A stretch of DNA of 64,000 nt from an uncultured Tateyamaria sp. (GTDB lineage: Bacteria > Pseudomonadota > Alphaproteobacteria > Rhodobacterales > Rhodobacteraceae): contig NZ_CANMBJ010000006.1 of NCBI RefSeq assembly GCF_947496075.1, forward strand, positions 62,001 through 126,000, given 5' to 3'. Positions 3 to 33,820 of the stretch are shown one piece after another. Both the position numbers and the translations under genes were made by a program. Below the pieces are notes generated by a model. That model worked only from the letters and a program-made list of their open reading frames with translations, ran no database searches and had not been told where the DNA came from. Position 1 is the stretch's first letter; each line of letters starts with the position of its first letter.

Positions 3-3000
3 CTTCCATTGATTGCCAAAGCCACTGGACCTGCGCAGGTGGTGACCCGACCGGTTGTGGTGCCAACCGGGATGACGCCGAAAGAGGTGCGCGCCGCCTT
101 TGCCATCATGATGACTCGGATGACCGAAAATGCCTGCGTGGATTTGGCAGTGGCTATTTCGGGTCCTTCTCATGCGGCGGGATGGGTGCCAGTGTGGGTG
201 ACGTTGGACGACAGCATTGGCCGGATGACAGACAAGTTGGCCACGGATATCGAAGCGGCAAACGCGCGCGGTCCCTTTGCCGCTGACCTCGTTGCGCGCC
301 TTCCGGGCAGTGACCCGGCCTTGCCCGCATTGGCCCTGTCTGATGATGTTGAGGCCGGACTTGTTGGTCCTGCGGCACTGACACTTGCAACCACGTCTGA
401 AGGGGCCACTCTTCTGGCTGACGGAAATCGAGTTCAGGCCGCTGCAGTTGATCTGTATGCCGCGCGTCTGACCCATTTGTTGGAAAACCTAAGCGGCAGC
501 GACAATGCCCGCACTCTATCGATCCTGCCGCCTGCCGAACGCGAGCTGACGGTTGAGACGTGGAACGCAACGGCCACGGATTTTGACCGTACCCAATGCG
601 TACACCAGATTTTTGAGGCACAAGTTGTCCGTACGCCCACCGCAGAGGCACTCGCTTTTGAGGGCCACAGCCTCATCTATGAGGCGCTCAACACAGCAGC
701 CAACCAGCTGGCGCACAAGCTGATCGCCATGGGCGTCCAGCCCGGAGTGATCGTGGGGTTGCACCTGCCACGATCAGCCGAATTGGTGATCGCGGCCCTC
801 TCGATCATGAAGGCGGGAGGGGCGTATCTGCCCATGGACCCGGCCTTTCCTGCCGATCGCACAGCGCTTTATATCGAAGACAGTCAGGCCGGCGTGGTGA
901 TCACCAATGCCGAATTGGCGGCGGCGCTTCCAGACAGTGCCACTCAAGTCCTCGACATTGCCACGGACGTCGCAGATCAACCCGTAGCGAACCCTTCAAG
1001 CGGTGTCGCAAGTACCGACCTTGCCTACATGATCTACACTTCCGGTTCGACCGGTCGGCCCAAGGGCGTGATGGTCGAACATCGCAACGTGGCCAACTTC
1101 TTTGTTGGTATGGATGACCGGATCGACCACGCCACTGGGGGCGTGTGGCTGGCGGTTACGTCGTTGTCCTTTGACATCTCGGTGCTTGAGCTGTTCTGGA
1201 CGCTTGGGCGCGGTTTCAAACTTGTGCTGTCGGGTGATGAAAGCCGCGCGCTCGTGGCCGGGGACGAAGCTGGCCCAGGTGGCGTGCCCGGCGGTATGGA
1301 ATTCAGTCTGTATTATTGGGGCAACGACGACGGAAAGGGGCGCGACAAGTATCGATCGCTTCTGGAAGGCGCGAAGTTTGCTGATGAAAACGGTTTTGTA
1401 GCGGTCTGGACACCCGAGCGGCATTTCCATGCTTTTGGTGGGCCCTATCCCAACCCGTCGGTGACCGGCGCCGCAGTGGCCGGCATGACGCGCAATATCG
1501 GTGTGCGGGCGGGGTCTTGTGTCGCACCGTTGCATCATACCGCCCGGATTGCCGAGGAATGGGCGGTGATCGACAACCTAACCAACGGGCGTGCCGGACT
1601 GGCCATTGCCAGCGGCTGGCAACCGGATGACTTCGTGCTGCGTCCGGAAAATACGCCCCCTGAAAACAAGCCTGCCATGTTCCGCCAGATCGAGGACTTG
1701 CGCAAACTCTGGGCCGGCACGCCTGTGTCCTTCCCGCGCAAAGACGGCCAGATGCACGAAGTTGTCACCCAACCGCGCCCAATCTCGGATACGCCGGACC
1801 TGTGGGTTACGACTGCTGGCAATCCCGAGACATGGAAAGAAGCCGGGCGCAACGGGTGCCATGTGTTAACCCACCTCTTGGGGCAATCGGTGGACGAGGT
1901 TGGCGACAAGATCAAACTCTACCACGCGGCCTTGCGCGAGGCGGGTTATGATCCCGCGCAGTTCAAGGTGACGCTGATGCTACACAGCTTCCTTGCCGCC
2001 ACCCGGGATCAAGCCCGCGAGATCGCGCGCGAACCGATGAAGGACTACCTGCGTTCGGCTGCAGGGTTGATCAAGCAATATGCCTGGGCCTTTCCAGCGT
2101 TTAAGAAACCCGAAGGGGTCGACAGTGCATTCCAATTGGACCTCGGTTCGCTGACCGACGAAGAGTTGGAAGGTATTCTCGATTTCGCTTTTGAACGGTA
2201 TTTCAACGACAGCGGCCTGTTCGGCACTGTCGAAGATGCGCTTGCCCGGGTTGAACAGGTCAAAGGCATCGGTGTCACCGAAGTTGCTTGTCTTATTGAC
2301 TACGGGATCGAAGTGGACACGCTTCTGGACGGGCTGACGCCGCTGGCGGAGGTGGTGCGCCGGGCAAATGCGGAGACCGCGCCGGCTGCTGACGATTTTT
2401 CGATTGCCGCGCAGATTGCGCGCCACAAGGTTACCCATCTGCAATGCACACCTTCAATGGCGCGCATGCTGGTAATGAACGACGCGGCAAGTGCCGCATT
2501 GCGCCCGGTCAAACACCTCATGCTCGGCGGCGAAGCCTTGCCCGGGGCGTTGGTGCGCGATTTGAATGCGCTGACCGAAGCGCATATTGAAAACATGTAC
2601 GGGCCCACCGAAACCACGATCTGGTCGACCACGGGCCATGCATCCGCGGATGCAGGAGTAGCGGGCATCGGCACACCGATTGCCAACACGCAGGTCTATG
2701 TCCTTGATGACGCGATGGAACCACAGCCCATTGGCGTTGCCGGTGAGCTTTACATTGGTGGCGATGGCGTGACACGCGGCTACTGGCAACGTCCCGAACT
2801 CACGGCGGAACGCTTTGTCTCCGATCCGTTCCAAACCGATCCGGAAGCCCGGCTTTACCGTACCGGTGATCTCGCCCGTTGGCTGCCAGATGGAGAGCTA
2901 GATTTCCTGGGACGGGCCGATTTTCAGGTCAAACTACGCGGATACCGGATTGAGTTGGGCGAAATCGAGTCCGCTATCGACACATTGAATGGCGTGCGTC

Positions 3001-3668
3001 AGTCCGTTGCGCTGGTGCGCGAGGATATCCCTGGTGCGCAGCAGCTGGTGGCGTATCTGTTGGCTGATGGGTCGGTGAGCGAGGCGGGGCTTAAATCGGC
3101 GCTTTCAGACGTGCTGCCTGCCCACATGATCCCAAACCGTTTTGTTGTATTGGATGCTTTCCCACTCACACCCAACAAGAAGGTTGATCGAAAGGCGTTG
3201 CCTGTACCGGGTGCACCAGCGCGCCCCAAACCTGCTTCCGTTCCGCCCACTCAAACCAGCTCGCAAGCTGACGCACCTGCCGCGACCGCTGGATTTGATG
3301 GGGATATCACGATGGCGATCTCTGGAATCTGGAGCGCAATCCTTGGGGTTGGCGACATCACCGCGCGCGACAACTTCTTTGATCTTGGTGGTCACTCGAT
3401 TCTGGCAGTACAGGCGCATCGGGAAATCAAGGCACAACTGGGCGTGGCGAGACTGTCCATAACCGACATCTTCCGTTTCCCGGTTCTCGGAGACCTCGCT
3501 CAAGCGGTCGAAGCCAAGATGAGCGCCACGCCAACTGCCCGGGCTGCGACCGCTGCAGAAGTCAGCGCACCTGCTACGGCCCCTGAAGTGGAAGCTGTGC
3601 CATCTGGGCGCGCAGATGCCATGGCTCAACGTCGGGCCATGCGCGCCCGGCGGCGTCGGGCGAGATGA
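3..3668 (+). CDS. NRPS fragment: (C)-A-[luciferase-like monooxygenase]-A-T, 5' end outside window
   Basis: Nonribosomal peptide synthetase module that activates an amino acid and loads it on its own carrier domain. The frame is open to the window edge, so the N terminus is missing. Counting from the TTG at 9 as residue 1: residues 1-180 look like the C-terminal lobe of a condensation domain plus linker; A-domain motif A3 YTSGSTGRPKG is at 343-353 and A4 SFDISVLELF near 393. A bacterial-luciferase-like monooxygenase starts at MEFSLYYWG (430) and runs to about 785. The A domain resumes near 797 (A5 MYGPTETTIW, then YRTGDLARW, NKKVDRKALP). The T domain has LGGHS with the phosphopantetheine serine at 1130. 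No thioesterase or reductase follows, only a basic tail. By-eye pocket residues read D-I-L-Q-M-G-M-I-W-K, near the glycine code. It overlaps the next gene (ATGA). Domain calls are firm; substrate is inference. Confidence 0.93.
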   Translation, partial: LPLIAKATGPAQVVTRPVVVPTGMTPKEVRAAFAIMMTRMTENACVDLAVAISGPSHAAGWVPVWVTLDDSIGRMTDKLATDIEAANARGPFAADLVARLPGSDPALPALALSDDVEAGLVGPAALTLATTSEGATLLADGNRVQAAAVDLYAARLTHLLENLSGSDNARTLSILPPAERELTVETWNATATDFDRTQCVHQIFEAQVVRTPTAEALAFEGHSLIYEALNTAANQLAHKLIAMGVQPGVIVGLHLPRSAELVIAALSIMKAGGAYLPMDPAFPADRTALYIEDSQAGVVITNAELAAALPDSATQVLDIATDVADQPVANPSSGVASTDLAYMIYTSGSTGRPKGVMVEHRNVANFFVGMDDRIDHATGGVWLAVTSLSFDISVLELFWTLGRGFKLVLSGDESRALVAGDEAGPGGVPGGMEFSLYYWGNDDGKGRDKYRSLLEGAKFADENGFVAVWTPERHFHAFGGPYPNPSVTGAAVAGMTRNIGVRAGSCVAPLHHTARIAEEWAVIDNLTNGRAGLAIASGWQPDDFVLRPENTPPENKPAMFRQIEDLRKLWAGTPVSFPRKDGQMHEVVTQPRPISDTPDLWVTTAGNPETWKEAGRNGCHVLTHLLGQSVDEVGDKIKLYHAALREAGYDPAQFKVTLMLHSFLAATRDQAREIAREPMKDYLRSAAGLIKQYAWAFPAFKKPEGVDSAFQLDLGSLTDEELEGILDFAFERYFNDSGLFGTVEDALARVEQVKGIGVTEVACLIDYGIEVDTLLDGLTPLAEVVRRANAETAPAADDFSIAAQIARHKVTHLQCTPSMARMLVMNDAASAALRPVKHLMLGGEALPGALVRDLNALTEAHIENMYGPTETTIWSTTGHASADAGVAGIGTPIANTQVYVLDDAMEPQPIGVAGELYIGGDGVTRGYWQRPELTAERFVSDPFQTDPEARLYRTGDLARWLPDGELDFLGRADFQVKLRGYRIELGEIESAIDTLNGVRQSVALVREDIPGAQQLVAYLLADGSVSEAGLKSALSDVLPAHMIPNRFVVLDAFPLTPNKKVDRKALPVPGAPARPKPASVPPTQTSSQADAPAATAGFDGDITMAISGIWSAILGVGDITARDNFFDLGGHSILAVQAHREIKAQLGVARLSITDIFRFPVLGDLAQAVEAKMSATPTARAATAAEVSAPATAPEVEAVPSGRADAMAQRRAMRARRRRAR

Positions 3669-4306
3669 GTGCGCTTGATGCACTATGTCAGCAAGTACAG
3701 GGATATGTTGGCCCGAACGTCGGCGTAGGTGTGGCGGATCCCAAGGGGTTGCCAGTTGGTTTTGACCCCGTTGAAGCCGTCGCGACCACACGCATGATCG
3801 ACAAACGCCTGCGCGAGTTTTCAGCCGGGCGCTCAGCCGTGCGGCGCGCAATGCGGGCCATCGACTTGGCGCCCATGCCCGTACCCATGGCGCCGGACAG
3901 GTCACCTTGTTGGCCTGCGGGTGTTATTGGTTCCATCAGTCATTGCAGCAATGCCGCGATGGCCATGGTCGCAAGGAGTGGAAACATACGCGCGCTGGGC
4001 GTGGATATGGAAGAAGCCGAGCCGCTCGATACAGACCTGTGGGATACGGTCCTGACCCCGGCCGAACGGGACCGGACCGACAACGGGCTCACTGCCAAGC
4101 GCATCTTTTGCGCCAAGGAAGCTGTCTATAAGGCACAGTTTCCGATAACCAGGCAACTACTGGGCTTTGAGGACGTTGTTGTTACCCTGAAAGGCACTCA
4201 ATTCACCGCTCGCATCAAGAGTGGAGGCGACGACTGGTCCGGGATCATCGTTGGTTCCAAGCTCCTGCCCAAAGAGTTGATCATTGGCATTGTGACTTTG
4301 CACTAA
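3665..4306 (+). CDS. 4'-phosphopantetheinyl transferase, EntD/Sfp type
   Basis: Transfers the phosphopantetheine arm from CoA to carrier-protein serines, which would convert the T domain of the upstream NRPS to its holo form. The 213-residue length fits the EntD group. Visible motifs are WPAGVIGSISHC (central), LGVDMEE with the metal-binding D and E, and FCAKEAVYKAQFP with the catalytic E and K region. The ATG overlaps the NRPS stop as ATGA, so the two are translationally coupled. That close coupling argues for a dedicated partner rather than a general enzyme, although it may also serve other synthases. Confidence 0.93.
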   Translation: MSALDALCQQVQGYVGPNVGVGVADPKGLPVGFDPVEAVATTRMIDKRLREFSAGRSAVRRAMRAIDLAPMPVPMAPDRSPCWPAGVIGSISHCSNAAMAMVARSGNIRALGVDMEEAEPLDTDLWDTVLTPAERDRTDNGLTAKRIFCAKEAVYKAQFPITRQLLGFEDVVVTLKGTQFTARIKSGGDDWSGIIVGSKLLPKELIIGIVTLH

Positions 4307-4317
4307 GGATTTTTCTT

Positions 4318-5259
4318 ATGCTCAGAAGGATATTGCGCAAATCGACGGCCTCCTTGTTCCTGTTGCTGTCCGCCTGCGGGCTGGCTAGTCGCTGTGGCGC
4401 CCCCGATCCAGTGGATGAGGCGACGTTCAACGCGCTTTATGCCAGTCCGAACGATGTGCCCGATGCGCCGCTCAAGGTCTATCATCTGGGCCACAGTCTG
4501 GTTGGCCCTTACATGCCAGTTATGCTGCAGCAACTGGTAGGCACGGGCCATGACTATAACAGTCAATTGGGATGGGGATCTCCGCTGCAGCAGCACTGGG
4601 AGCCAGACGTTCCGATCAATGGCTTTGAAGAATCCAATGGCCCACCCGCCTATCGCGACGCGAAAGAGGCGATGGCATCAGGGGAGTATGACGCAGTTGT
4701 TCTGACGGAGGCGGTCGAAATTCGCGATACCATCAAGTACCATGACCCGCATGACTACCTGCGTAAGTGGGCGGTTGCGGCCTGGGACGGTAACCCTGAT
4801 ACCCGCGTGTATCTCTATGAAACCTGGCACACCCTTGATGACGCCGAAGGCTGGCTGGAGCGGCTTGACCTCGATCTTGAGCGCTATTGGGTAGGCAAAA
4901 TCCTACGACCTGCCTTGGCCTACGAGGAGGTTAATAACCCCATTTACATCATCCCAGCGGGGCAAGTGATGGCGTCCTTTGTACGCAAGGTCGAAGCCGC
5001 GGGTGGTATCGGGGCCATCCGGGACCGCACTGATCTCTTTGATGACGACATTCACTTCAGTCACTTCGGTGGGTATCTGGTGGCGCTGACCCACTATGCG
5101 GTGCTTTACGGGCGGTCGCCTGTGGGTTTGCCACACAAGATGCGATTGCCCGACGGCAGCACTGCGGATGACCCGGGGCCAGAGGCTGCGAGGGTCATGC
5201 AGGAAACGGTTTGGGAGGTTGTGACGTCCTACCCGCCCAGTGGTGTAAGGCAGAACTAA
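4318..5259 (+). CDS. SGNH-hydrolase-like secreted lipoprotein
   Basis: The ATG lies 11 bases after the transferase stop, so it belongs to the same operon. The N terminus has a basic stretch, a hydrophobic run and LLLSACG, a lipobox-like site, so a lipid-anchored periplasmic or surface protein is expected. HLGHSLVG resembles block I of SGNH/GDSL hydrolases, with the serine as nucleophile candidate. DDIHFSHFGGYLVA near the C terminus resembles the D-x-x-H block. The middle carries VVLTEAVE. Such proteins hydrolyse or transfer acyl or acetyl groups on glycans. It could release or modify the NRPS product or decorate the polysaccharide made downstream; neither is shown. Substrate unknown. Confidence 0.7.
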   Translation: MLRRILRKSTASLFLLLSACGLASRCGAPDPVDEATFNALYASPNDVPDAPLKVYHLGHSLVGPYMPVMLQQLVGTGHDYNSQLGWGSPLQQHWEPDVPINGFEESNGPPAYRDAKEAMASGEYDAVVLTEAVEIRDTIKYHDPHDYLRKWAVAAWDGNPDTRVYLYETWHTLDDAEGWLERLDLDLERYWVGKILRPALAYEEVNNPIYIIPAGQVMASFVRKVEAAGGIGAIRDRTDLFDDDIHFSHFGGYLVALTHYAVLYGRSPVGLPHKMRLPDGSTADDPGPEAARVMQETVWEVVTSYPPSGVRQN

Positions 5260-5260
5260 G

Positions 5261-7705
5261 TTAGTCGCTCAGCGCTGGCAGTTGTTCAAGGCGCGCTGCT
5301 TCGTCCCTGGCTATTTTGAACTGCGGGCGTGGATCATTGTCATCGGCAAGCTCAAGCATTTGTTGATATTGCGCGATGGCGTCGGCCCGTCGATCCAACG
5401 CGCCGTAGACTTGCCCCAAGTGAAACTGCACGATTGGGTCTGATGGCAGAGCGGACGCCGCCAACTCCAAATAGGGTAGGGATTCTTCGAAGTTTCCTCG
5501 TCTGAAGGCAACCCAACCGTAGGTGTCTTGCATTGCTGGCACGTTCGTGTCGCGGAAACGCCGCGCCACGATCCACGCACGTTCAAAGCTGTCTTCATCG
5601 GTCTTGTGGGTTGCCAGGAGGCTTGCCAGATTGTTGGCCGCGATCAGATCGCCAGAGTTCCGCTCATAGATCCGTTCGTAATTTGTAATAGCACGGTCAA
5701 TATCACCGGAAGCCTCAAACTCTGCCGCTTGAAACCAGAGAAGATCCCGATTGTCCGGATCAATCGCGAGCCCTTCCCGCAAGGTTTGGCTGGCTTCCGC
5801 ATCTTTTTGTTGAAGGCGCTGGAAACGGTAAAGCTGGCTCCAGACCCGCATGCGGTTGGGATCTTCTTGTACGAGCGTGTTAAGCAGTGTTTCGGCAACA
5901 TCCAGATTTCCGTTGGCTGCATGGGACGTTGCCAAGATGAACTGGAGTGACGGATTCTCGGGGTGTTTGGCGACCAGCTCCTTGGCTTGTTCCAACGCCT
6001 TTTCTGTCTGGTCCGAACTAAGCCGTGCTCGCAACAGAGTCATTTGAGTATTGAGAGCTGAATCCTCCCGGGTTGCCAACTCCTCCAAAAATCCAAGTGC
6101 TTGTTCCAGTCCTTCTCGGCTGCCCAAAAGCCGCGCCTGAAGCGCGTTGGCAACAACCAAAGTGCGTTCAGTTCCAATGCTGCGCAGTCGTTTGATCACT
6201 TGATCTGCGCGAGAGTAATCCTCGGACGCCAAATAGACTTCGCCCAAGAGGACCAGAAGATCTGCATTTGACCGATCGCGACGAAGAGCGGCGATCAACA
6301 CTTCTTCCGCGGCCAGATAGCGCTCATCTGCGGCAAGCACGCGCGCATAGCGCAAAGTTGGCGCCGGGGCATTTTTGGAGGCATCCACCGCCAGAGCCAG
6401 AAAATCCCATGACAAATCACGATTACCTGCGCGGGCATAGGCCTCCGACATCAAGGTAAGTGCGGCCACGTCGTTCGGAGCTTTGTCCAGGGCCAGACGA
6501 AGGTCGGCGATCGCGGCATCGGTTGCATCGTTACCGATCAGCCAGGTTGCGCGCATCTTGAGCCCTTCAACATGGCGGCTATCGGATTCCAACACTTCAT
6601 CGACCAAGCGTTTCGCATCCACCACATTACCCGTTTGGATCATCATTTGCGCTAGGGTGATCTTGATGTCGTTCGGTTGCGCGGATGGCGTGGCCTGATC
6701 AAGTAGAGCTTGCAGGTCGGCGATTGCCTTATCGTGCGCGCCCGCTTCAAAATCGAGCATTGCCAGTAGCATCTTTAATTTGCCGGGCTGGGGCGAAACT
6801 TCCAGCGCCGCGATCAGTTCCGCGTGGGCCGTTTCGGGGTCGCGCATGTCGCGCAAGAACCGCACAAGGCCAATAAACAGCGCTGGATCCTCTGCAGCAG
6901 GATCCGCAATTTCGCGAAAGAATGCCTCCGCCTTGTTGACCTGATTGCGCCTCACGTAGAAGCGGATCAGGTCTTTCTTGGGTCCATCATCATCGGCAAA
7001 GAGGGCTACCATGTTCCGCAGCTGGTCTTCTACCGCCGCATAGTCCTGTAGTTCGTTCAGCAGTCCAAGGCGTTGGGTGTAAAGTGTCCGGTTGTCCGGC
7101 TTACTCGCGATCATGCGATCCAACTGACCCAAGGCCCGATCCAGCTTCCTGTCGCGCATGTAGGCGTCAAAAAGGACCTGCTGTAGCACGTCGCTGTCAG
7201 GATTGTCTGCGGCAAGGCGTTCTGCTTTGTCTCGCAATGCATCCCGGGCCGGCCCATCGCGTGCCTGTAACGCCTCTTGGTAACTTAGGGCGAGGTCAAT
7301 GATCTGGCTACGTGGAGCATCGGGGGCAAGGGCCACTGCTTGTGCAGCATGGCGCACGAATTCTTGCCAGTTGCGCGCCTCAAAAGCGATTTCGGCCAGA
7401 ATGGTTCGCCCCTCGACATGGTCGGGCACCTGTTCGACCAGTCGCAGATAGTGGCCATAAGCAGCGCTCTTGTCGTTTTTGTCGAGCATGAGCTGCGCCA
7501 TGGTTTCGCGCGCTTCAACATGGTTGGCCATCAGTTCGAACACGTTGCGCAGTTCTATAGCGGCCCGATCCAAGTCGCCTTGGTCGATCAATTCAAGCGC
7601 AGAGGCCAGATACTTTTCTGCGCGCTCCTCAGCAGTGTCGCAGGCCGCGAGAGACAGACACAGGCTTATGGCCAGAACAAAGTTGCGCGCGAGCAGAGGC
7701 CACAT
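5261..7705 (-). CDS. TPR-repeat lipoprotein of exosortase/polysaccharide loci (PrsT-like)
   Basis: An 814-residue protein built almost entirely of tetratricopeptide repeats after a lipoprotein signal (hydrophobic stretch, then LSLAACD lipobox). Proteins of this build, PEP-CTERM-system TPR lipoproteins, accompany exosortase-linked polysaccharide genes and probably act as periplasmic scaffolds. I chose the ATG at 7705 (MWPLLARN) because a GGGA ribosome site lies 8-10 bases before it; a TTG six codons upstream is the alternative. It converges on the lipoprotein gene ending at 5259, with one base between the stops. A terminator of the upstream sugar transferase lies just before it, so it probably has its own promoter. 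The role is inferred from family and context. Confidence 0.75.
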   Translation of the reverse strand: MWPLLARNFVLAISLCLSLAACDTAEERAEKYLASALELIDQGDLDRAAIELRNVFELMANHVEARETMAQLMLDKNDKSAAYGHYLRLVEQVPDHVEGRTILAEIAFEARNWQEFVRHAAQAVALAPDAPRSQIIDLALSYQEALQARDGPARDALRDKAERLAADNPDSDVLQQVLFDAYMRDRKLDRALGQLDRMIASKPDNRTLYTQRLGLLNELQDYAAVEDQLRNMVALFADDDGPKKDLIRFYVRRNQVNKAEAFFREIADPAAEDPALFIGLVRFLRDMRDPETAHAELIAALEVSPQPGKLKMLLAMLDFEAGAHDKAIADLQALLDQATPSAQPNDIKITLAQMMIQTGNVVDAKRLVDEVLESDSRHVEGLKMRATWLIGNDATDAAIADLRLALDKAPNDVAALTLMSEAYARAGNRDLSWDFLALAVDASKNAPAPTLRYARVLAADERYLAAEEVLIAALRRDRSNADLLVLLGEVYLASEDYSRADQVIKRLRSIGTERTLVVANALQARLLGSREGLEQALGFLEELATREDSALNTQMTLLRARLSSDQTEKALEQAKELVAKHPENPSLQFILATSHAANGNLDVAETLLNTLVQEDPNRMRVWSQLYRFQRLQQKDAEASQTLREGLAIDPDNRDLLWFQAAEFEASGDIDRAITNYERIYERNSGDLIAANNLASLLATHKTDEDSFERAWIVARRFRDTNVPAMQDTYGWVAFRRGNFEESLPYLELAASALPSDPIVQFHLGQVYGALDRRADAIAQYQQMLELADDNDPRPQFKIARDEAARLEQLPALSD

Positions 7706-7725
7706 GGTGAAATCCCGAAACAACA

Positions 7726-7845: not shown

Positions 7846-8526
7846 TCAATGGCCTGTTGCTTTGAGCACTACCGACACTGTCTTGGCCAGAACGTTCATA
7901 TCGGTGCCGAATGACACTGCTCGTGCATACTTGTCATCGTACAGGGCACGGTCTGCAAAGTCACAGTCGTTGCGATCCGAAATCTGCCAGAAACCAGTAA
8001 TGCCAGGCCGTAGCCAGTAGTAGGCAACACCAGGATACTGTGCCTTTTGGCATACCATCATTGGGCGGGGTCCAATGAGCGACATTGACCCGACGAAAAC
8101 GTTCAATAGCTGCGGCAGCTCATCAAGAGATGTCTTGCGCAGGATGCGCCCCACCTTGGTAATCCGGGGGTCTTCCTTCAGCTTTTGCGTGCTTTCCCAT
8201 TCTGCGCGAGCATCAGGGTTGGCAGCAAGATAGCTTTCCAGGCGTGCATCGGCGTCGATGGTCATGGTGCGGATCTTCCAGATGCGAAAGGTACGCCCAT
8301 TCCGCCCAATACGCAGCTGTGAATAGAATGGTTTGCCACCGTCCATAGCCACCAAAGCAGCCATAACCAAAATGATTGGGACAACGATAGGAGCTGTAAG
8401 GACAACAAGGAAAAGGTCCAGGGAGCGCTTCGCATAGGAGTGGTAGAAACCACCGAGGCGAGACTTGTAGCGCCCCCTGAAGAAAACAGAGATTTCGTTC
8501 TGAAAATCGTGTGATTGAATGGTCAT
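7846..8526 (-). CDS. Undecaprenyl-phosphate sugar phosphotransferase (initiating polyprenyl glycosyl-1-P transferase)
   Basis: Starts polysaccharide repeat-unit synthesis by placing a sugar-1-phosphate on undecaprenyl phosphate at the inner membrane. The 226-residue size fits the short ExoY/WcaJ catalytic-domain type. Seen: KRSLDLFLVVLTAPIV followed by a hydrophobic helix, FRIWKIRTM, LRKTSLDELPQLLNVFVGSM, SLIGPRPM and PGITGFWQ, all family hallmarks. I place the start at the ATG at 8526, with GGAAGG about 10 bases upstream. The open frame continues to 8631, but that extension has no ribosome site. It is a single transcription unit with its own terminator and an upstream CtrA-like site at 8640-8655. 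Confidence 0.92.
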   Translation of the reverse strand: MTIQSHDFQNEISVFFRGRYKSRLGGFYHSYAKRSLDLFLVVLTAPIVVPIILVMAALVAMDGGKPFYSQLRIGRNGRTFRIWKIRTMTIDADARLESYLAANPDARAEWESTQKLKEDPRITKVGRILRKTSLDELPQLLNVFVGSMSLIGPRPMMVCQKAQYPGVAYYWLRPGITGFWQISDRNDCDFADRALYDDKYARAVSFGTDMNVLAKTVSVVLKATGH

Positions 8527-8897
8527 AAACAAGAGCCTTCCGGCTTGGTTAAAAACAGTCAGCCCAGTAAAAAAAGTCAGGCCTTTTTGAAAATTCGATG
8601 TTGTTTGTGACGGGAGCAGATGTGCCGACACGTAATGTGTTTACCATTTGTTAACCTGCCGCCAAAGTGAAATTAGCGTGAATCCGCCCAATAACGTGGT
8701 AAACGCTGAAAAGGTTTGTTGCTCGATCAGAAACCCTCAACTGATGATAGAATGGCTTCATCTTTTCCGGGTGAATTTCATAAAAATTTCAGAAATTTCC
8801 AATGTGGCAAGAGAATCAGTAGCGAATCAGTCCGCAAAGCGACACAGGAAAATCCTATGTAAGCAGCCGTACCGAAGCGTGTCTGAGATGTTCGGAT
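8527..8897. other. Divergent intergenic region between sugar transferase and glycosyltransferase genes
   Basis: About 370 AT-richer bases with no credible gene. It must hold the promoters of the minus-strand sugar transferase and possibly of the plus-strand glycosyltransferase pair. The only motif I can name is the CtrA-like site at 8640-8655. Confidence 0.5.
8640..8655 (+). promoter_or_regulatory. CtrA-like site (TTTA-N7-TTAAC)
   Basis: TTTACCATTTGTTAAC matches the alphaproteobacterial CtrA consensus TTAA-N7-TTAAC at 8 of 9 fixed bases. It lies about 115 bases upstream of the sugar transferase start. A by-eye match only; such motifs also occur by chance. Confidence 0.35.
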
Positions 8898-10085: not shown

Positions 10086-11173
10086 AAGTTCTGCTTTTTC
10101 TGATTTACGGCGATCAACGCGTCTATCATCTGGAATTGACGTACAGCATTCTTTCAGCCTGGCAGTACCTCAAGGACGACCCTGAAGACATCCGCATTGT
10201 ATTGGCGGCAGATGAGGCGAACCAAAGGCCAGATCTACCGGTCGATGCCTTACTCTTGTCGCCTCAGATGATGGCGGACTGGAGTATGCGAGGCACCTAT
10301 CACCATGCGATCAAGCTTCATGTGATGCACCATGCCTTGCAAAAGTATGCTGCCCCCGTCGCAATGATTGATAGCGATACCGTGTTCATGGGGCATCCCA
10401 AGCATTTGTTTGAACGCTTTGGACCTGAACGGGCCCTTATGCATGCTTGCGAAGGGCCGCTTGAAAACAGTGCCGAGTGGCCAGAATGGAAAGCCCTGAT
10501 CCAAAACTGTGGGGGCTGCGTTACCGGACGACCCATATCGTCAAAAACGATAATGCATAACGCTGGGGTTTACGGACTGATGCCGGAACATGCCTCGTTG
10601 ATGCAAACTGCGGTCGCGATTCTTGAAGACCTGCGCAAACATGGGTCGGTCTTTACAGCGGAACAACTGGCGGGTTCCGTTGCCCTCCATGACGTGTTGG
10701 AGATTGCTGAATGCAGGGATTTGATTGAACATTATTGGCACGGCCCGCGTGCTTACTTTCACTACCAGATGGGCCAGATGTTTCACGGTGTAAGGGAAGG
10801 GGGCGGTGTTGCTGATATGAACATGCGGCTCCCAACCTTGCAGCGGCACATCCCGAGTAGGCCTGCACATCAAGTTGGCGCGCGCCTGAAGCGATTGCAG
10901 CGCCGCGCACCGTCAGAGTACGAGTTCGCCTATCGTGCCTATCTTGGCGCGCGTTCGACCCGGTTGTCGGATCCGGAATTAGCGAATGTCTGGGCTTTGA
11001 CCGCTTTGAACATGCTGACATGGGGCATGCCGGACGGGAAACTGTTGCTAAATACCATCGAAACGGACTTTGCCTTGTTCTCCCCGGCCCGACTACACGA
11101 ACAGAACTGGATGACTGTGCCCTTGCAGAAACGGTGGGCGGCCTTTTGGGTGGAAGCTGAAAAAGGCCTTTAG
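10082..11173 (+). CDS. Putative GT-A-type glycosyltransferase
   Basis: Starts with a TTG overlapping the stop of the gene before it (TTGA), so the two are coupled. It is 363 residues with no membrane segment or signal. VAMIDSDTVFMGH near residue 100 carries a DxD motif as in sugar-nucleotide-dependent transferases, and KVLLFLIYGD at the N terminus fits the first beta strand. The rest matches no family I can name. By position it should act in polysaccharide assembly. It converges on the flippase gene with a 4-base overlap of the ends. Confidence 0.55.
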   Translation: MKVLLFLIYGDQRVYHLELTYSILSAWQYLKDDPEDIRIVLAADEANQRPDLPVDALLLSPQMMADWSMRGTYHHAIKLHVMHHALQKYAAPVAMIDSDTVFMGHPKHLFERFGPERALMHACEGPLENSAEWPEWKALIQNCGGCVTGRPISSKTIMHNAGVYGLMPEHASLMQTAVAILEDLRKHGSVFTAEQLAGSVALHDVLEIAECRDLIEHYWHGPRAYFHYQMGQMFHGVREGGGVADMNMRLPTLQRHIPSRPAHQVGARLKRLQRRAPSEYEFAYRAYLGARSTRLSDPELANVWALTALNMLTWGMPDGKLLLNTIETDFALFSPARLHEQNWMTVPLQKRWAAFWVEAEKGL

Positions 11174-12522
11174 AAAGCCCAGAGCACCTCGAGCCCGTCG
11201 CGATGGAACCACAGCATGAAGCTGGTTAGCCCAGCAGCGACCAACGCAAAAAACAGATCGTGCCAAGGGTCCCAAGCGCCGTGTTTGTAGGCAAGGCGCA
11301 CCACCAGCGGATGCACAAGGATTTGGGACATCCACAAACCAATCAATGCACCTGGCAGTCCATAGTACTCCATCCCCAGGATGAACAACGCGACTTGGGT
11401 CGACGCCTTCGCCAACAGCAGAAAAAAGACACCGCGGGAGTCTCCGCGCCCCAGCGCGGCGAAGTCATAAGTCATCCCGATGAGGTAAGGCACGCCCATG
11501 CAAGCGATCGCAACCACTACACCACCTGCGGCCAAGAACCGATCATCATACAGGAAATCCACTACCCAGATGCCTAAGAATGCTGCCGTGAACTGCATTG
11601 AGAATACCGCTGCGGTCATCATGAAACGCATCTTGCGTACCTTGTTGAAGTTCTCGCGGGTCTCATGGGGCGGGCACTCACGATGGAGCGGGATCATCAC
11701 TCGACTCATCACCATTGCCGCAAGCGCTTGGGGGAAGCTGGCGAGGAAGTATCCGATGTTGTAGATACCGAGGCTTTCCAAGGTCATGTATTTGCCGAGG
11801 ATTGCCTTGTCTCCTTGCGTTAACAAGAAGCCGCAGAGCGTGCTTAGGAAAATCCACTTCCCGAAATGTATCAGGTCCCAAGCGGCTTCGGAATCCCAGC
11901 GCAACCGATTTGGTGCACCCGGTAGAAAGAGATGCATAATGCAAAGGCGAATGATCGCACCCGTGACACTGCCGATCACCAACGCCCAGATCGAACGCAG
12001 CGTCCACGCCAACAGTAGCATCACCAAGAGACTGAAAAACTGCGAGATGATGTCGAGAATCGTCATACGCCCGACCATCAGGTGGCGACTGGCGCTGTCG
12101 ATCCGTGTCGGATTGAACCCAGCGATCAACAGGCTCAACCCGGCCACAGGCAGCATCATTGATAATCGGTCGTCTTCGTAGAACCATGCAGCCAACGGCC
12201 CCAATCCACAGCACACCAGCCACAGGATCCCCCCCCGGATCGCCTGAACCGTCCATGCGGTGTTCAGGAAATCTGGGTCGTCACCCTTGGGACTTTGTTG
12301 AATGGATGGTGCGATTCCAATGTCTGACAACATTGTCAGACCCACCAGGAAAACGGTGATGATCGCCATGAGCCCAAAGGCTTCGGGAAATAGAAGTCTT
12401 GTCAGAACGAGGTTTGACGCCAAGCGCAGAATTTGCGCGGAGCTGAAACCGATGAACGTCCAGCCAGTGCTGCGCAACAGCCGAGCGCGCAACCCGTCGC
12501 CTCCTAACACACGTTGAAACAT
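11170..12522 (-). CDS. Oligosaccharide flippase, Wzx/MATE type
   Basis: Moves lipid-linked repeat units across the inner membrane. 450 residues with about 12-14 hydrophobic segments. The opening GWTFIGFSSAQILRLASNLV followed by LTRLLFPEAFG is typical of the polysaccharide-transport (PST) branch of the MOP superfamily. The ATG at 12522 is preceded by AGGTGGGG and is preferred; a GTG at 12537, directly after the amidotransferase stop, is the alternative. It is co-transcribed with the amidotransferase gene upstream. Confidence 0.88.
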   Translation of the reverse strand: MFQRVLGGDGLRARLLRSTGWTFIGFSSAQILRLASNLVLTRLLFPEAFGLMAIITVFLVGLTMLSDIGIAPSIQQSPKGDDPDFLNTAWTVQAIRGGILWLVCCGLGPLAAWFYEDDRLSMMLPVAGLSLLIAGFNPTRIDSASRHLMVGRMTILDIISQFFSLLVMLLLAWTLRSIWALVIGSVTGAIIRLCIMHLFLPGAPNRLRWDSEAAWDLIHFGKWIFLSTLCGFLLTQGDKAILGKYMTLESLGIYNIGYFLASFPQALAAMVMSRVMIPLHRECPPHETRENFNKVRKMRFMMTAAVFSMQFTAAFLGIWVVDFLYDDRFLAAGGVVVAIACMGVPYLIGMTYDFAALGRGDSRGVFFLLLAKASTQVALFILGMEYYGLPGALIGLWMSQILVHPLVVRLAYKHGAWDPWHDLFFALVAAGLTSFMLWFHRDGLEVLWAF

Positions 12523-12537
12523 TGCCCGCTGCCCCAC

Positions 12538-14490
12538 CTAGTTGCCTGAAAGGCTGAACTCTTCAAGCCACGCTTGAAACATAAGTACGTTCCATAGCTG
12601 CAGACCCCAATTGTGACTGCCCTTTTGATGCTGGTCCCACATCTGACGGATCAATGCCGGTTGCAGAAAACCCTCGCGTTTCAGTCGGTCAGGCGTGATC
12701 AACGCTTCGGCCCAGTCGCGCAAACCACCGCGAAGCCAGAGGCCGATTGGCACTTCGAACCCCATCTTGGGCCGTTCAATCAAATCTTTGGGCACATGGC
12801 GATAAAGCACCTGACGCAAAAGCCACTTGGATTTGCCGTCGCGGATTTTCATATTCAATGGCAGCGGCCAGATGAACTCGGCCACCCGGTGATCCAGAAG
12901 AGGAGCCCGGCTTTCCAACGCCACCGACATTGTCGCGCGATCCACCTTGGTCAGGATGTCGTCCGGCATGTAGGCCAGCATGTCCAGCTGCATCATGCGT
13001 TCGATGTCGGTAAGATCCCCCCGCGGCGGCAGGTGGTCAGCCAAGATCGACGGAGGGTTATTACCATTGATCACGGCAGCTTCAGGGAAGCGCCAGACCG
13101 ACACCATCTTGCGATGTAACTCATCGACATTCCGGCTGCGCGCATAGTTTGCAATGCGGTGCATGCGCTGGCCATTGGGTTCCTTGCCTTGCGGTGTAGG
13201 CCGGATCGGCTCCATCACTGTGTTCAGCAAACTGGCGGGCAGCGAACGGATGGTTGCAGCGCCGAGGCTGCGCAATGGCTGGGGCAGGGCTCGCAGAATT
13301 TTGAGAAATCCCGCGCCTTGGCGATAACGATCATAGCCGCCAAAAAGCTCATCCCCTCCATCCCCCGACAAAGCGACCGTTACATGTTCGCGGGCCAGTT
13401 TGGCCACCAAATGGGTGGGGATTTGTGAGCTGTCGGCGAAAGGTTCGTCATACATCGCAGGCAATGCCGGGATCACGTCGCGCAGATCGGTGTCGGCTAC
13501 GTAAAGCTCGGTGTGGTGAGTGCCAAGGTGCTGGGCAATTGCCTTGGCAAACTCTGCCTCATTGTAGCGCGCTTCATGAAATCCGATGGAAAAGGTGTGC
13601 ACGGGACGGTCTGATAAGTGCTGCATCAGGCCCACTATGGTCGAACTATCAATGCCACCCGACAGGAAGGCACCAAGCGGCACGTCAGACATCATCTGGT
13701 TGCCCACCGCGTCCAAGAGCAGGGCCTCAAGTTGGTCAATCGCCTCCTTGTCCGTCGGTACAGGCTCCTTGGGCATGGAGGCCGCTGAACCCCCGTCCCA
13801 ATAAAACCAGCGCCGCGGATCCGGTTGCGCATTTGACAATGTCGCCATCTCGCCCGGCCGCAGCTTCTGCACTCCAGAATAGATGGTGAGATCTTCGGGA
13901 ACATGGCCATGGCGCAGCATTGCCGTGAGTGCATCGCGGCGCACCTCGCCATGGAAAGCTGGATGGGCGCGCAGGGCCTTGAGTTCGGAGCCAAAGAGGA
14001 AAACACCCCCCTGCCAGCCGTAATACAGCGGTTTTTCCCCAAGCCGATCTCGGGCCAACGTCAAAGAGCGATCCTTGCGATCCCAAAGTGCGATGGCGAA
14101 CATGCCTTCGGCGCGGGCCAACGTATCTTCGAGGCCCCATGCCGTGATACCTGCAAGCAATACCTCGGTATCTGAAGTGCCGCGCCAAGACGGAGCATGG
14201 CCCGCCTGTTCCAAGTCTCGCCTCAGGGCCGCGTGGTTGTAGATTTCACCATTGTAAACAATTTGGTATCGGTCACATGCAGATGCCATGGGCTGGTGTC
14301 CCGCCGGCGAAAGATCGACGATGGCCAATCGCAAATGACCAAGGCCAACGCCGGCTTCGGGGTCGATCCAAAGCCCTTGACTGTCCGGACCACGGTGGGA
14401 GATAGCGTCCATCATCGCCCGCAGGTGCGGTTCAGATCGCGCTTTGACTTCTGCCTGTCCGGAGAACAAAAACCCGGTAATGCCACACAT
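12538..14490 (-). CDS. Asparagine-synthase-like glutamine amidotransferase
   Basis: Starts MCGITGFLFSG, so the N-terminal cysteine nucleophile of class II glutamine amidotransferases is present after Met removal. Residues 1-200 form the glutaminase domain (SHRGPDSQG, YNGEIYN). The synthase domain has FLSGGIDSST, the PP-loop that adenylates the acceptor. At 650 residues it matches the longer AsnB-like enzymes found in capsule and exosortase-linked loci, where they are thought to amidate a sugar acid rather than make free asparagine. It directly precedes the flippase. Acceptor not known. Confidence 0.88.
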   Translation of the reverse strand: MCGITGFLFSGQAEVKARSEPHLRAMMDAISHRGPDSQGLWIDPEAGVGLGHLRLAIVDLSPAGHQPMASACDRYQIVYNGEIYNHAALRRDLEQAGHAPSWRGTSDTEVLLAGITAWGLEDTLARAEGMFAIALWDRKDRSLTLARDRLGEKPLYYGWQGGVFLFGSELKALRAHPAFHGEVRRDALTAMLRHGHVPEDLTIYSGVQKLRPGEMATLSNAQPDPRRWFYWDGGSAASMPKEPVPTDKEAIDQLEALLLDAVGNQMMSDVPLGAFLSGGIDSSTIVGLMQHLSDRPVHTFSIGFHEARYNEAEFAKAIAQHLGTHHTELYVADTDLRDVIPALPAMYDEPFADSSQIPTHLVAKLAREHVTVALSGDGGDELFGGYDRYRQGAGFLKILRALPQPLRSLGAATIRSLPASLLNTVMEPIRPTPQGKEPNGQRMHRIANYARSRNVDELHRKMVSVWRFPEAAVINGNNPPSILADHLPPRGDLTDIERMMQLDMLAYMPDDILTKVDRATMSVALESRAPLLDHRVAEFIWPLPLNMKIRDGKSKWLLRQVLYRHVPKDLIERPKMGFEVPIGLWLRGGLRDWAEALITPDRLKREGFLQPALIRQMWDQHQKGSHNWGLQLWNVLMFQAWLEEFSLSGN

Positions 14491-15414: not shown

Positions 15415-16953
15415 TCATGCCAGCCCCAACTGGGCCAGAACCCGGTTTGCAATGATTTCCAGAGGCACAAGTTCGGTATGCACGTAATACAGAGCGGCTG
15501 GTACGCCCACGATGACGGCCGCCAACACTGCCAACTGCACGCTGCGGCGACGCCAACGTTCCGCCCTGCTATCCAAATATGGAATGACTCCAATCGGCAT
15601 GATCTGAAACCGCGCCTGTAGTTCTGCCGGGTGGCGCACCTTTTGATTGAGAATTTCAAGGAGCACGAAATACGCCAGTGCCAGCCCCATGCCAATGGCG
15701 GCACCCATAGCTGCAATCCGCTTGCGCGGAGGTCCAGAGGGTTCCTGCGGCACGCTCGCGCCCTCAATCAGGCTGATCCGTTGACCTTGGGCGTTAATCT
15801 CGATCCGTTCTGCCATGCGCGCCTGGTTCAGGTTTTCAAGAACAGTGTTGTATCGGGCACGTGCGCTTTGCAGATCCCGGTCCAGCCGTTCCAGGGTTAT
15901 GGAATTGGTGGCAGTGGCCGCAATCGCGAGGGACAGCCGCTCAAGCTCGTCGTTGACCCGTGTGATTTCCAGGTCGATCTGTTCTATGCGCTGATCCATC
16001 TCGGCTAGGGTGATATCCAGAAAAGACAGCTCGGTGTCCTCAGCCTCTTCACCTTCTCGGGGCTGGGCCCCTGCGATGCTACGCTCAAGCTGTTCAATTT
16101 GCCCGCGCAGCTGGATAACTCTTGGGTTTGACTCTGAATAAATTGTCAGCGCCTCTGCCAACTGCACGTCCAATTCTTGCACGCGTAGTTCTTCGGGCGA
16201 AAGTGTTCGACGGGTATCATTGCCAAGCCGACCTGTAGCCTCGAATACAGCGATCATTTCGCTACGCTGTCCGACAATTGCAGCGCGGTCTTGCTCCAAT
16301 CGGCCCACACGCTCTTGCAACGTGGATTGACGATCCTGCCGATAGAGCAGGTCGTCCGGCAACGCATTCACGTTCTGGTTCTTGAATTCGATGATGCGGT
16401 TGGATTGCGTGTCTATCTCGGCCGCAAGCCGTTCCGACTCTTGTTCAAAGAAGGACAACGTGTTTTCCGCGCGCTCGCGCCGGAACGAGCTGTTGGCCTC
16501 GAGAACCAATGTCACGTAGTCGTTTACAACGTTGGCAGCAGTTTGCCCGTCTGAGGCCTCGAACGTCAGCGACATCAGCGTGGCCTGACCCCGCCCGCCG
16601 CTGCGAAAGATACGAGTGCTGTCCCGCATGCCTTGCACAACTCTGTCGGGGGTCAACGCGCTCATGTTGTCAAACACCTGATACTTTTGCGCGATCTCGA
16701 CTAGGTTGGCGCGGGTCATCAGCTGTTCTTGAATAAGCTGCAACTGTTCAGCTGCTTCGGTCTGAACCATCGAGACCACCATCTCATCCGGGATTTGCGG
16801 CGGATCAACTTGCAGGCGGGCGGTCGATTCAAAGGTAGGCGGCAACTGAAATGCCGTTACAACAGCAAGGCATGAGCAGACCAGAAACAGGGCCATCATA
16901 GCCGGCATCCGGCGCATCAACAGTGACCAATAAAAGCGCAGCGGAAGGTTCAT
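15415..16953 (-). CDS. Wzz/GNVR-type polysaccharide chain-length determinant
   Basis: Inner-membrane protein that sets polymer length together with the neighbouring ATPase. An N-terminal membrane helix (residues about 15-37) is followed by the Wzz-like ARLQVDPPQIPDEM region. Long coiled-coil segments cover about residues 150-330. A GNVR-like piece (QARMAERIEINAQG) is followed by PSGPPRKRIAAMGAAIG, the proline-rich motif before a second membrane helix. A third hydrophobic segment lies near the C terminus. 512 residues matches the exosortase-locus chain-length proteins. It overlaps the upstream ATPase gene by 4 bases. Confidence 0.88.
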   Translation of the reverse strand: MNLPLRFYWSLLMRRMPAMMALFLVCSCLAVVTAFQLPPTFESTARLQVDPPQIPDEMVVSMVQTEAAEQLQLIQEQLMTRANLVEIAQKYQVFDNMSALTPDRVVQGMRDSTRIFRSGGRGQATLMSLTFEASDGQTAANVVNDYVTLVLEANSSFRRERAENTLSFFEQESERLAAEIDTQSNRIIEFKNQNVNALPDDLLYRQDRQSTLQERVGRLEQDRAAIVGQRSEMIAVFEATGRLGNDTRRTLSPEELRVQELDVQLAEALTIYSESNPRVIQLRGQIEQLERSIAGAQPREGEEAEDTELSFLDITLAEMDQRIEQIDLEITRVNDELERLSLAIAATATNSITLERLDRDLQSARARYNTVLENLNQARMAERIEINAQGQRISLIEGASVPQEPSGPPRKRIAAMGAAIGMGLALAYFVLLEILNQKVRHPAELQARFQIMPIGVIPYLDSRAERWRRRSVQLAVLAAVIVGVPAALYYVHTELVPLEIIANRVLAQLGLA

Positions 16954-19819: not shown

Positions 19820-20530
19820 ATGATTTTTGACCTGAGTAACAGATTGAGCGCGTGTGTGTTTTCAGTCGCTTTGGCATTTGTTGGTTCCACCGCCGGTGCG
19901 ACGACAATTAATTTCGACGTTAATGAGTATTACACGAGCGGAACCAATACCTACACAAGCACAGACGGCTCGGTCGACGTGGCGGTTGACGGCGTTCGCG
20001 TGAACCGATTTGGCACGATCACGAATACCGAAAACTACTGGACGTCCAGCTGGGATGGTCCCGGCGATAATGGCGGTCTCGGTGTTTATGATTGCCGCTG
20101 GGCGAACTCGTGTCTGGACAACAGCCAAATCGATGGCGCGGGCCCCGACGAATTCGCACTCCTCGATTTTGGTGACCTGATAGTCCAGATCACGTCCATC
20201 ACGTTCTCGTTTTGGGACAACGACGATACGTTCGCTTACGGCGTATACGAAGACACGGCTGTCCCTTCGACACCTGTAGTGTACGAAGACAATCTGGGTG
20301 GAGGCGCTAACAACCCTTACACTTTCGCGTTCGGCGAAGGTGAGTTGGTAGGATCCATCATCGGCTTTGGCGTCGACAGCTGGAATGATAACTTCCGCCT
20401 GCAGAACATAACGTTTGATCTGGTATCGGCTGTGCCGTTGCCCGCTGGCGGTCTATTGATCCTGACCGGTTTGGGTGGTTTGGCACTTATGCGTCGGCGG
20501 CGCACCATCACGGCGATAGCCACGACCTGA
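19820..20530 (+). CDS. VPLPA-CTERM sorted surface protein
   Basis: A 236-residue secreted protein. N-terminal signal peptide (hydrophobic stretch ending STAGATT), then an acidic, Gly/Asn/Tyr-rich beta-type body. The C terminus is a three-part sorting signal: VPLPAGG, a hydrophobic helix, then MRRRR. This is the Rhodobacterales VPLPA-CTERM variant recognised by a dedicated exosortase, which cuts and anchors the protein. No exosortase gene is in this window. Placement within the polysaccharide locus fits an extracellular-matrix protein. The ribosome site is weak. Two cysteines (YDCRWANSC) could form a disulfide. A terminator follows directly. Confidence 0.85.
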   Translation: MIFDLSNRLSACVFSVALAFVGSTAGATTINFDVNEYYTSGTNTYTSTDGSVDVAVDGVRVNRFGTITNTENYWTSSWDGPGDNGGLGVYDCRWANSCLDNSQIDGAGPDEFALLDFGDLIVQITSITFSFWDNDDTFAYGVYEDTAVPSTPVVYEDNLGGGANNPYTFAFGEGELVGSIIGFGVDSWNDNFRLQNITFDLVSAVPLPAGGLLILTGLGGLALMRRRRTITAIATT

Positions 20531-33507: not shown

Positions 33508-33820
33508 ATTGCGGCAGAATTCGGCCTTGAGGCCCACTAACTAGCAAAACCTCGCCGAAACTGTGCGACTTCATCCGTCGTGAGGCAACGTCGACTTGCC
33601 CGGACCATTCAGTGCCGTATTACAGCCACAATCTCGAACTAAAAAAAGCACGTTTGAGTAGTAACGGTTAACGTAGGGTCAGAGCAGTATCTGACAGAAA
33701 ACAGCGCATCGCCGGCTGATGCCGACGCGGTGTGCAGGAAATCGGGGTTTGCCTTTGCAAGCCCCCGGGACACTTTTGCCGGTCGCTAAGGCACTGGCTT
33801 GGATACGAAAAGAGGCACCG
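33508..33820. other. Intergenic region before the beta-helix gene
   Basis: 310 bases, no gene called. The open frame of the next gene extends back to 33719, but the ATG at 33821 has the better ribosome site. It contains GGTTAAC at 33666-33672, a single CtrA-like half site without a good partner. No terminator with a T run was seen. Confidence 0.4.

Follow-up and report, generated by a model that had tools for sequence, protein, structure and literature searches.

The window analyzed here, a stretch of 64,000 nucleotides from an uncultured Tateyamaria sp. (contig NZ_CANMBJ010000006.1, positions 62,001 to 126,000), opens inside a gene for a nonribosomal peptide synthetase (NRPS); the window edge clips this gene, whose start lies 994 bases outside and whose full product has 1,553 amino acids (aa). 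The protein consists of a formyltransferase (F) domain, a linker that models as one half of a condensation (C) domain, an adenylation (A) domain into which a luciferase-like FMN monooxygenase (LLM) is inserted, a carrier (T) domain, and a basic C-terminal tail (Table 1). Upstream of the NRPS gene on the same strand lie genes for a GT2 glycosyltransferase and for a 2,190-aa polyketide synthase (PKS) with the domain order KS-AT-KR-DH-ACP-TE, whose thioesterase (TE) probably carries out release. Neither the F domain nor the PKS was visible to the initial annotation of this DNA because both lie outside the window. The architecture, the intact domains, their conservation, the pairing with the PKS, and the polysaccharide context within the home family are computed results.

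The LLM, 351 residues long, stands between motifs A4 (SFDISVLELFW, 1167-1199) and A5 (NMYGPTETTIW, 2592-2624) of an otherwise intact A domain, the C half of which carries what we take to be motifs A5 to A10 (A10, LTPNKKVDRKALP, at 3165-3203). The initial annotation had placed the monooxygenase there with both A halves intact, and the TIGR04020 and AMP-binding matches and the motif coordinates agree. TIGR04020, the model for MupA/Atu3671 FMN-dependent luciferase-like monooxygenases, scores 464.8 and 460.7 bits against a cut-off of 244.45, over model positions 1-340/341; the NCBI family name MupA/Atu3671, which plasmid relatives also carry, is an annotation of protein type only. The main alignment of the NRPS contains 37 rows, including two without a fused F domain (L036 and L037) and one broken row (L056). 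Within residues 760-1119, 81 columns are invariant in 36 rows, and the LLM is the best-conserved part of the protein: it averages 74% identity to the window protein, compared with 57% and 61% in the two halves of A, 58% in T, 48% in F and 29% in the linker (means exclude L036, L037 and L056). The monooxygenase domain is thus intact and strongly conserved. Ser1464 of the carrier domain is kept in 36 of the 37 rows, the sole gap falling in the broken row.

The binding pocket of the A domain reads DILQMGMIWK and is nearly fixed in the 37 rows; compared by eye with DILQLGLIWK, which we take to be the glycine code, it departs at positions 299 and 322, which bears out the glycine-type pocket with two changes described earlier. 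A survey of pockets took in 46 loci, some of them one gene taken twice: 31 with an A-LLM-A arrangement, four with an LLM alone and 11 without an LLM open reading frame (ORF) by pattern. Twenty-seven of the A-LLM-A loci gave a pocket and four gave none; 26 of the 27 read DIL..M(I/V)W, and the other (L149) reads DEL..MIW, perhaps a misparse. Insertion between A4 and A5 therefore appears tied to glycine generally; by contrast, the pocket of a Rhizobium F-A-T module without an LLM starts D-A-W, as read from the A4 motif. That module is the head of an NRPS/PKS of more than 5,000 residues encoded on a Rhizobium plasmid (L058:12061-27519), its pocket being of a non-glycine type, and further matches among those listed include many Rhizobium, Sinorhizobium and Bradyrhizobium plasmids. 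Four myxobacterial genomes (G633-G636) have 7 to 12 TIGR04020 matches each, many of them in A domains with a DIL..MIW pocket (loci L158-L161, L164-L167, L169-L172 and L174-L177).

The closest solved relative of the LLM is the OX domain of PuwE (6ket; phmmer E 1.9e-93, Foldseek E 7.8e-34, 43% identity), for which the passages on PuwE in PMC4219810 predict a role in forming a 2-hydroxy acyl chain. By analogy, the LLM would hydroxylate an acyl chain bound to the PKS, and its lodging in the A domain would be incidental; this is improbable, since A-inserted LLMs accompany the glycine-type pocket in 26 of the 27 readable cases. Alpha-oxidation of carrier-bound glycine, as first proposed in the initial annotation, is rated the most probable reaction of the LLM module.

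The F domain keeps Asn92, His94 and Asp130, which we take to be its catalytic residues; the Asn and Asp are present in 35 of the 37 rows, the exceptions being the two rows without a fused F domain. In the structural models the linker takes the form of a condensation C-lobe with no N-lobe. In VIA-align, the alignments to the C-A structures 5t3d, 2vsq and 6p1j begin at model residues 1, 2 and 6 (within protein residues 300-305), which pair with chain residues 173, 181 and 222, positions that presumably fall in the C domain's second half. For the F model, formyltransferases fill the VIA list, and the linker is barely probed there. Pfam Condensation matched the linker of two of 27 members (E 0.23 at best), the window protein not among them, and had no match anywhere in the window NRPS, so the C-lobe is assigned from the models and the structural alignments. 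With an F domain and half a C domain where a working C domain would stand, the protein looks like a starting module.

The basic tail ends in a DAMxRRxMRARR-like sequence; of 36 rows (the broken row left out), 28 have the pattern [RK][RK]x[ML]R within their final 24 residues, against four of 2,398 segments of that length from other parts of these proteins, and this arginine-rich end may be a docking element to the PKS. Near-full-length relatives of the NRPS occur in at least 75 of 248 genomes of the home family (about one genome per genus, the Tateyamaria genome included), at 77 places. At 74 of these a PKS relative lies within 2 kb, always on the same strand and in 72 cases upstream. Annotated plasmids of Ruegeria, Parasedimentitalea, Aminobacter, Shinella and Paracoccus carry the NRPS beside a type I PKS. 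Beyond the home family, F-A(LLM)-T modules with a PKS are found in the same class (L178-L181), in Pyxidicoccus and Myxococcus (L187 and L188; Myxococcota) and in Acanthopleuribacter (L062/L189; Acidobacteriota). In Deinococcus (Deinococcota) F has its own gene immediately upstream and the last domain of the PKS is a C domain, and in Aliiroseovarius the PKS continues into C-A-T-TE. TIGR04020 matches at E 1e-60 or better, all above the cut-off, occur in 19 of 398 genomes of a phylum-wide sample; a generic search of genome contigs for NRPS motifs gave at least 80 loci, which are no fair sample of the module family. At L182:7006-12618, a variant C-A(LLM + methyltransferase)-T with a full C domain lies beside the same kind of PKS in divergent orientation. 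A supposed PKS-NRPS fusion in G144 was rejected: the listed frame has 4,565 aa, and the re-read protein has 1,482 aa and stops before the PKS.

The initial annotation found no release domain and suggested that release might fall to the oxidation itself or to another protein. The first point stands for the NRPS protein, where a Pfam scan gave no thioesterase match in the 52-residue tail behind T; the adjacent PKS outside the window carries a probable release TE. Release by oxidation would make the module the last of a longer peptide line, leaving an amide as in myxothiazol and melithiazol, where cleavage does so according to the relevant passages of PMC10204066 and PMC11342130. This is highly improbable here. 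An initiation module receives no peptide that could be cleaved: F stands at the N-terminus, the N-lobe of the C domain is missing, and the conserved partner is a PKS that includes a TE. Over 36 kb of upstream DNA the NRPS and the PKS are the only ORFs of NRPS-module size, a 949-aa ORF there encoding an RTX-repeat protein; within the window the next largest ORF, of 1,011 aa, encodes an Ig/beta-helix protein; and no further NRPS module was recognized, the rest of the genome not having been searched for trans-acting lines.

These features make it somewhat more likely than not that the protein is the initiation module F-halfC-A(Gly, LLM)-T of a two-protein hybrid NRPS-PKS working as follows. The 4'-phosphopantetheinyl transferase (PPTase) encoded directly downstream would prime the carriers, and the A domain, to judge from its nearly invariant pocket, would load glycine. 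F would then formylate glycyl-S-T with formyl-tetrahydrofolate as donor, and the LLM would hydroxylate the alpha carbon to give N-formyl-alpha-hydroxyglycyl-S-T, a carbinolamide; these two steps could run in either order, and by shielding the amine the N-formyl group may allow the hydroxylated glycine to persist in its carbinolamide form. The KS of the PKS would take this starter and add one malonyl unit, KR and DH would reduce and dehydrate, and TE would release the product as an acid or transfer it.

Several points weigh against this course. The F sequence matches tRNA and sugar formyltransferases best and LgrA more weakly (E 3.9e-8 at best), so homology leaves the acceptor of F unfixed. No flavin reductase was recognized by profile scans among the neighboring genes scanned, and a Streptomyces relative does have an adjoining one. 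The presence counts are lower bounds because only two candidates were scored per genome in the protein searches. A PKS match within 15 kb is missing at three of the 77 places; two of these genomes (G098 and G245) have one on another contig, and the third place (G132:C142) is a second copy with none listed. In Aminobacter, Shinella, Neorhizobium, L179, L180 and L182 the PKS gene lies on the opposite strand, in divergent orientation. The branch that joins the F-linked LLMs in a tree of 74 LLM domains has an SH-aLRT of 89, below the 95 mark; it holds 46 rows: F is fused in 43 and adjacent in the Deinococcus row, while for two (L151 and L152) the upstream part lies outside the retrieved sequence. 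An alpha-hydroxy-N-acylglycine may also collapse to glyoxylyl and formamide before the KS step.

Such a collapse is what a dealkylation of the MtaG/MelG kind would exploit: N-formyl-alpha-hydroxyglycyl-S-T would yield formamide and glyoxylyl-S-T, the glyoxylyl group being the true PKS starter and the formyl group a handle on the leaving group. The insertion site and glycine pocket match those described for MtaG/MelG, and at Streptomyces, Corallococcus and Pyxidicoccus loci a TE shares its reading frame with an A4-A5 LLM module. No TE follows T here, however, and all four TE-bearing rows of the LLM tree, in which a TE is visible only where the retrieved sequence extends to it, fall outside the F-linked branch. 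Solanimycin B and skyllamycin, moreover, retain alpha-hydroxyglycine, as stated in passages of PMC10204066. Dealkylation is considered unlikely, though less so than the other alternatives.

Table 1. Features of the NRPS protein and its downstream neighbors (window positions; negative numbers lie before the window)
Feature	Residues	Position	Strand	Evidence
Formyltransferase (F) domain	1-297	-993 to -103 (upstream of window)	+	Pfam Formyl_trans_N, Formyl_trans_C
Linker, models as condensation C-lobe without the HHxxxDG-bearing N-lobe	333-520	3-566	+	AlphaFold2
Adenylation N half, motifs to A4	536-745	612-1241	+	Pfam AMP-binding
Inserted luciferase-like FMN monooxygenase (LLM)	766-1116	1302-2354	+	TIGR04020
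Adenylation C half, presumed A5 to A10		2388-3212	+	Domain matches, motif coordinates
Carrier (T) domain		3318-3509	+	Pfam PP-binding
Basic C-terminal tail		3594-3665	+	Conserved pattern [RK][RK]x[ML]R
PPTase, ATG overlaps NRPS stop		3665-4306	+	Pfam 4PPT_N (1.3e-21), ACPS
Lipoprotein-like protein		4318-5259	+	Pfam and NCBIfam without a match; GHS motif resembling SGNH, seen by eye
TPR protein, PEP-CTERM PrsT-like		5261-7723	-	TIGR02917 274.3 bits, below cut-off 312.2
Undecaprenyl-phosphate sugar transferase, WbaP-like		7846-8631	-	PF02397 188 bits; TIGR03022 264 of 403 bits, below cut-off
Wzx-type polysaccharide flippase		11170-12537	-	PF13440 166.9 bits
Wzz/Wzc-type chain-length protein		15415-16953	-	PF02706 25.5 bits, exactly the cut-off

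Downstream of the PPTase gene the window continues with genes typical of polysaccharide assembly. The lipoprotein-like protein, which might be an SGNH-type esterase or acyltransferase, has relatives beside the NRPS in four of 30 loci (L029, L044, L051 and L057). At 12538-14490 lies a gene for an asparagine-synthase-like amidotransferase of the PEP-CTERM/polysaccharide type (TIGR03108 569.7 bits, below the cut-off of 816.9), and the 1,011-aa protein near the polysaccharide genes (33719-36754) has a bacterial Ig domain and a right-handed beta-helix match below cut-off. Upstream in the locus (L005:459-1295) there is a weak match to a cyclophane-peptide 2OG-Fe(II) oxygenase (34.7 bits, cut-off 150). 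The VPLPA exosortase XrtD is encoded in the same region (L007:16699-18306; TIGR04152, 630 bits), and the protein at 19820-20530 of the window shares 60% identity with a protein of L028 annotated as VPLPA-CTERM. The idea that the NRPS-PKS pair supplies something used in exosortase sorting was rejected, as XrtD scores above its cut-off in 53 of the 248 genomes and the NRPS occurs in 75, and both occur in eight against 16 expected by chance.

The polysaccharide context extends to relatives. Twenty family loci of 19.5 kb, hand-picked as mostly best matches with some divergent ones and hence not random, were compared with control stretches elsewhere on the same contigs in 19 of the 20 genomes (G132, with a short contig, was omitted). 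Of five markers for polysaccharide assembly, one or more were present in 19 of the 20 loci, and at least two in 16, against none in the 19 controls; the same loci held GT2 in 19 cases and a PPTase in 18, and one control stretch had a PKS match. The NRPS/PKS pairs on the plasmids of the five genera named above sit among glycosyltransferases and other polysaccharide genes, and such a context is also found in L180 (sugar transferase, GT2) and in Deinococcus. The divergent relatives L033, L035 and L054 showed no such context, nor did L065, L178 (neighbors scanned in part) and L181, and no polysaccharide genes were recognized at the two myxobacterial loci or the Acanthopleuribacter locus. Its absence from divergent relatives indicates that the polysaccharide link belongs to one branch plus Deinococcus rather than to the pair as such; within the home family, the product is probably used by the polysaccharide pathway encoded around the pair.

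This context, found in the home family and Deinococcus, together with the presence of ArnA and sugar N-formyltransferases among the fold matches of the F model, could mean that F acts in formylating an amino sugar of the polysaccharide made by the neighboring genes, its fusion to the NRPS being incidental. That is quite improbable, because the fusion is kept at the myxobacterial and Acanthopleuribacter loci where no polysaccharide genes were recognized, and because on a Rhizobium plasmid F-A-T heads a large NRPS/PKS. If F instead acts on carrier-bound glycine, as proposed above, N-formyl-alpha-hydroxyglycine and malonate might give a carbonyl-rich C4 unit that is attached to the exopolysaccharide as a reactive or cross-linking substituent, a tentative and rather doubtful suggestion; formamide loss could then possibly leave a 4-oxobutenoyl group. 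Were this true, NRPS-PKS chemistry would decorate a polysaccharide and not make a secreted small molecule, linking assembly-line chemistry to surface polysaccharides.

In the open-access literature, with subscription papers mostly outside its reach, no report was found of a starter module that combines F, a half C domain and a glycine oxygenase inserted between A4 and A5, and no description of this two-protein pair, which is weak evidence of absence. A roseobacter genome report mentions, in the portion available, a type I PKS and NRPS-like cluster unlike known clusters, which may be the present locus (PMC11225332).

Each part of the system has precedent; the novelty lies in their combination, with its wide and unexplained distribution. 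In LgrA, of linear gramicidin, F also precedes A. There the A domain, which to our knowledge no LLM interrupts, starts by about residue 177, and F is much shorter, leaving no room for a C-lobe. In vitro formylation of the carrier-bound amino acid by LgrA is reported in a passage of PMC4504003. The same source, where it deals with conglobatin and oxazolomycin, describes F-A-T initiation modules with predicted glycine specificity that feed a PKS, and proposes a formyl-glycine starter for conglobatin; those passages mention no monooxygenase domain in the starter (PMC4504003). CongA, moreover, feeds a multi-module PKS, whereas the window module feeds a one-module PKS with a TE. Module 4 of SolF (solanimycin) is likewise a glycine module with a flavin monooxygenase, and solanimycin B keeps the alpha-hydroxyglycine; its monooxygenase, however, lies between A8 and A9 of a chain-elongating module, and the word formyl does not occur in the text of the paper (PMC10204066). 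The PuwE OX domain, for all its closeness to the LLM, is located between PKS and NRPS modules, with an acyl chain as predicted substrate (in the pertinent part of PMC4219810). The parallel with MtaG/MelG drawn in the initial annotation holds for the placement of the enzyme, an FMN monooxygenase inserted between A4 and A5 (as described in PMC10204066) of glycine-recruiting A domains (as described in PMC11342130); the likeness is drawn from published descriptions. MtaG and MelG differ in acting on a peptide joined to glycine, after which a TE frees glyoxylate, whereas in the window protein F and a half C domain occupy the site of a working C domain, and the chain ends without a TE.

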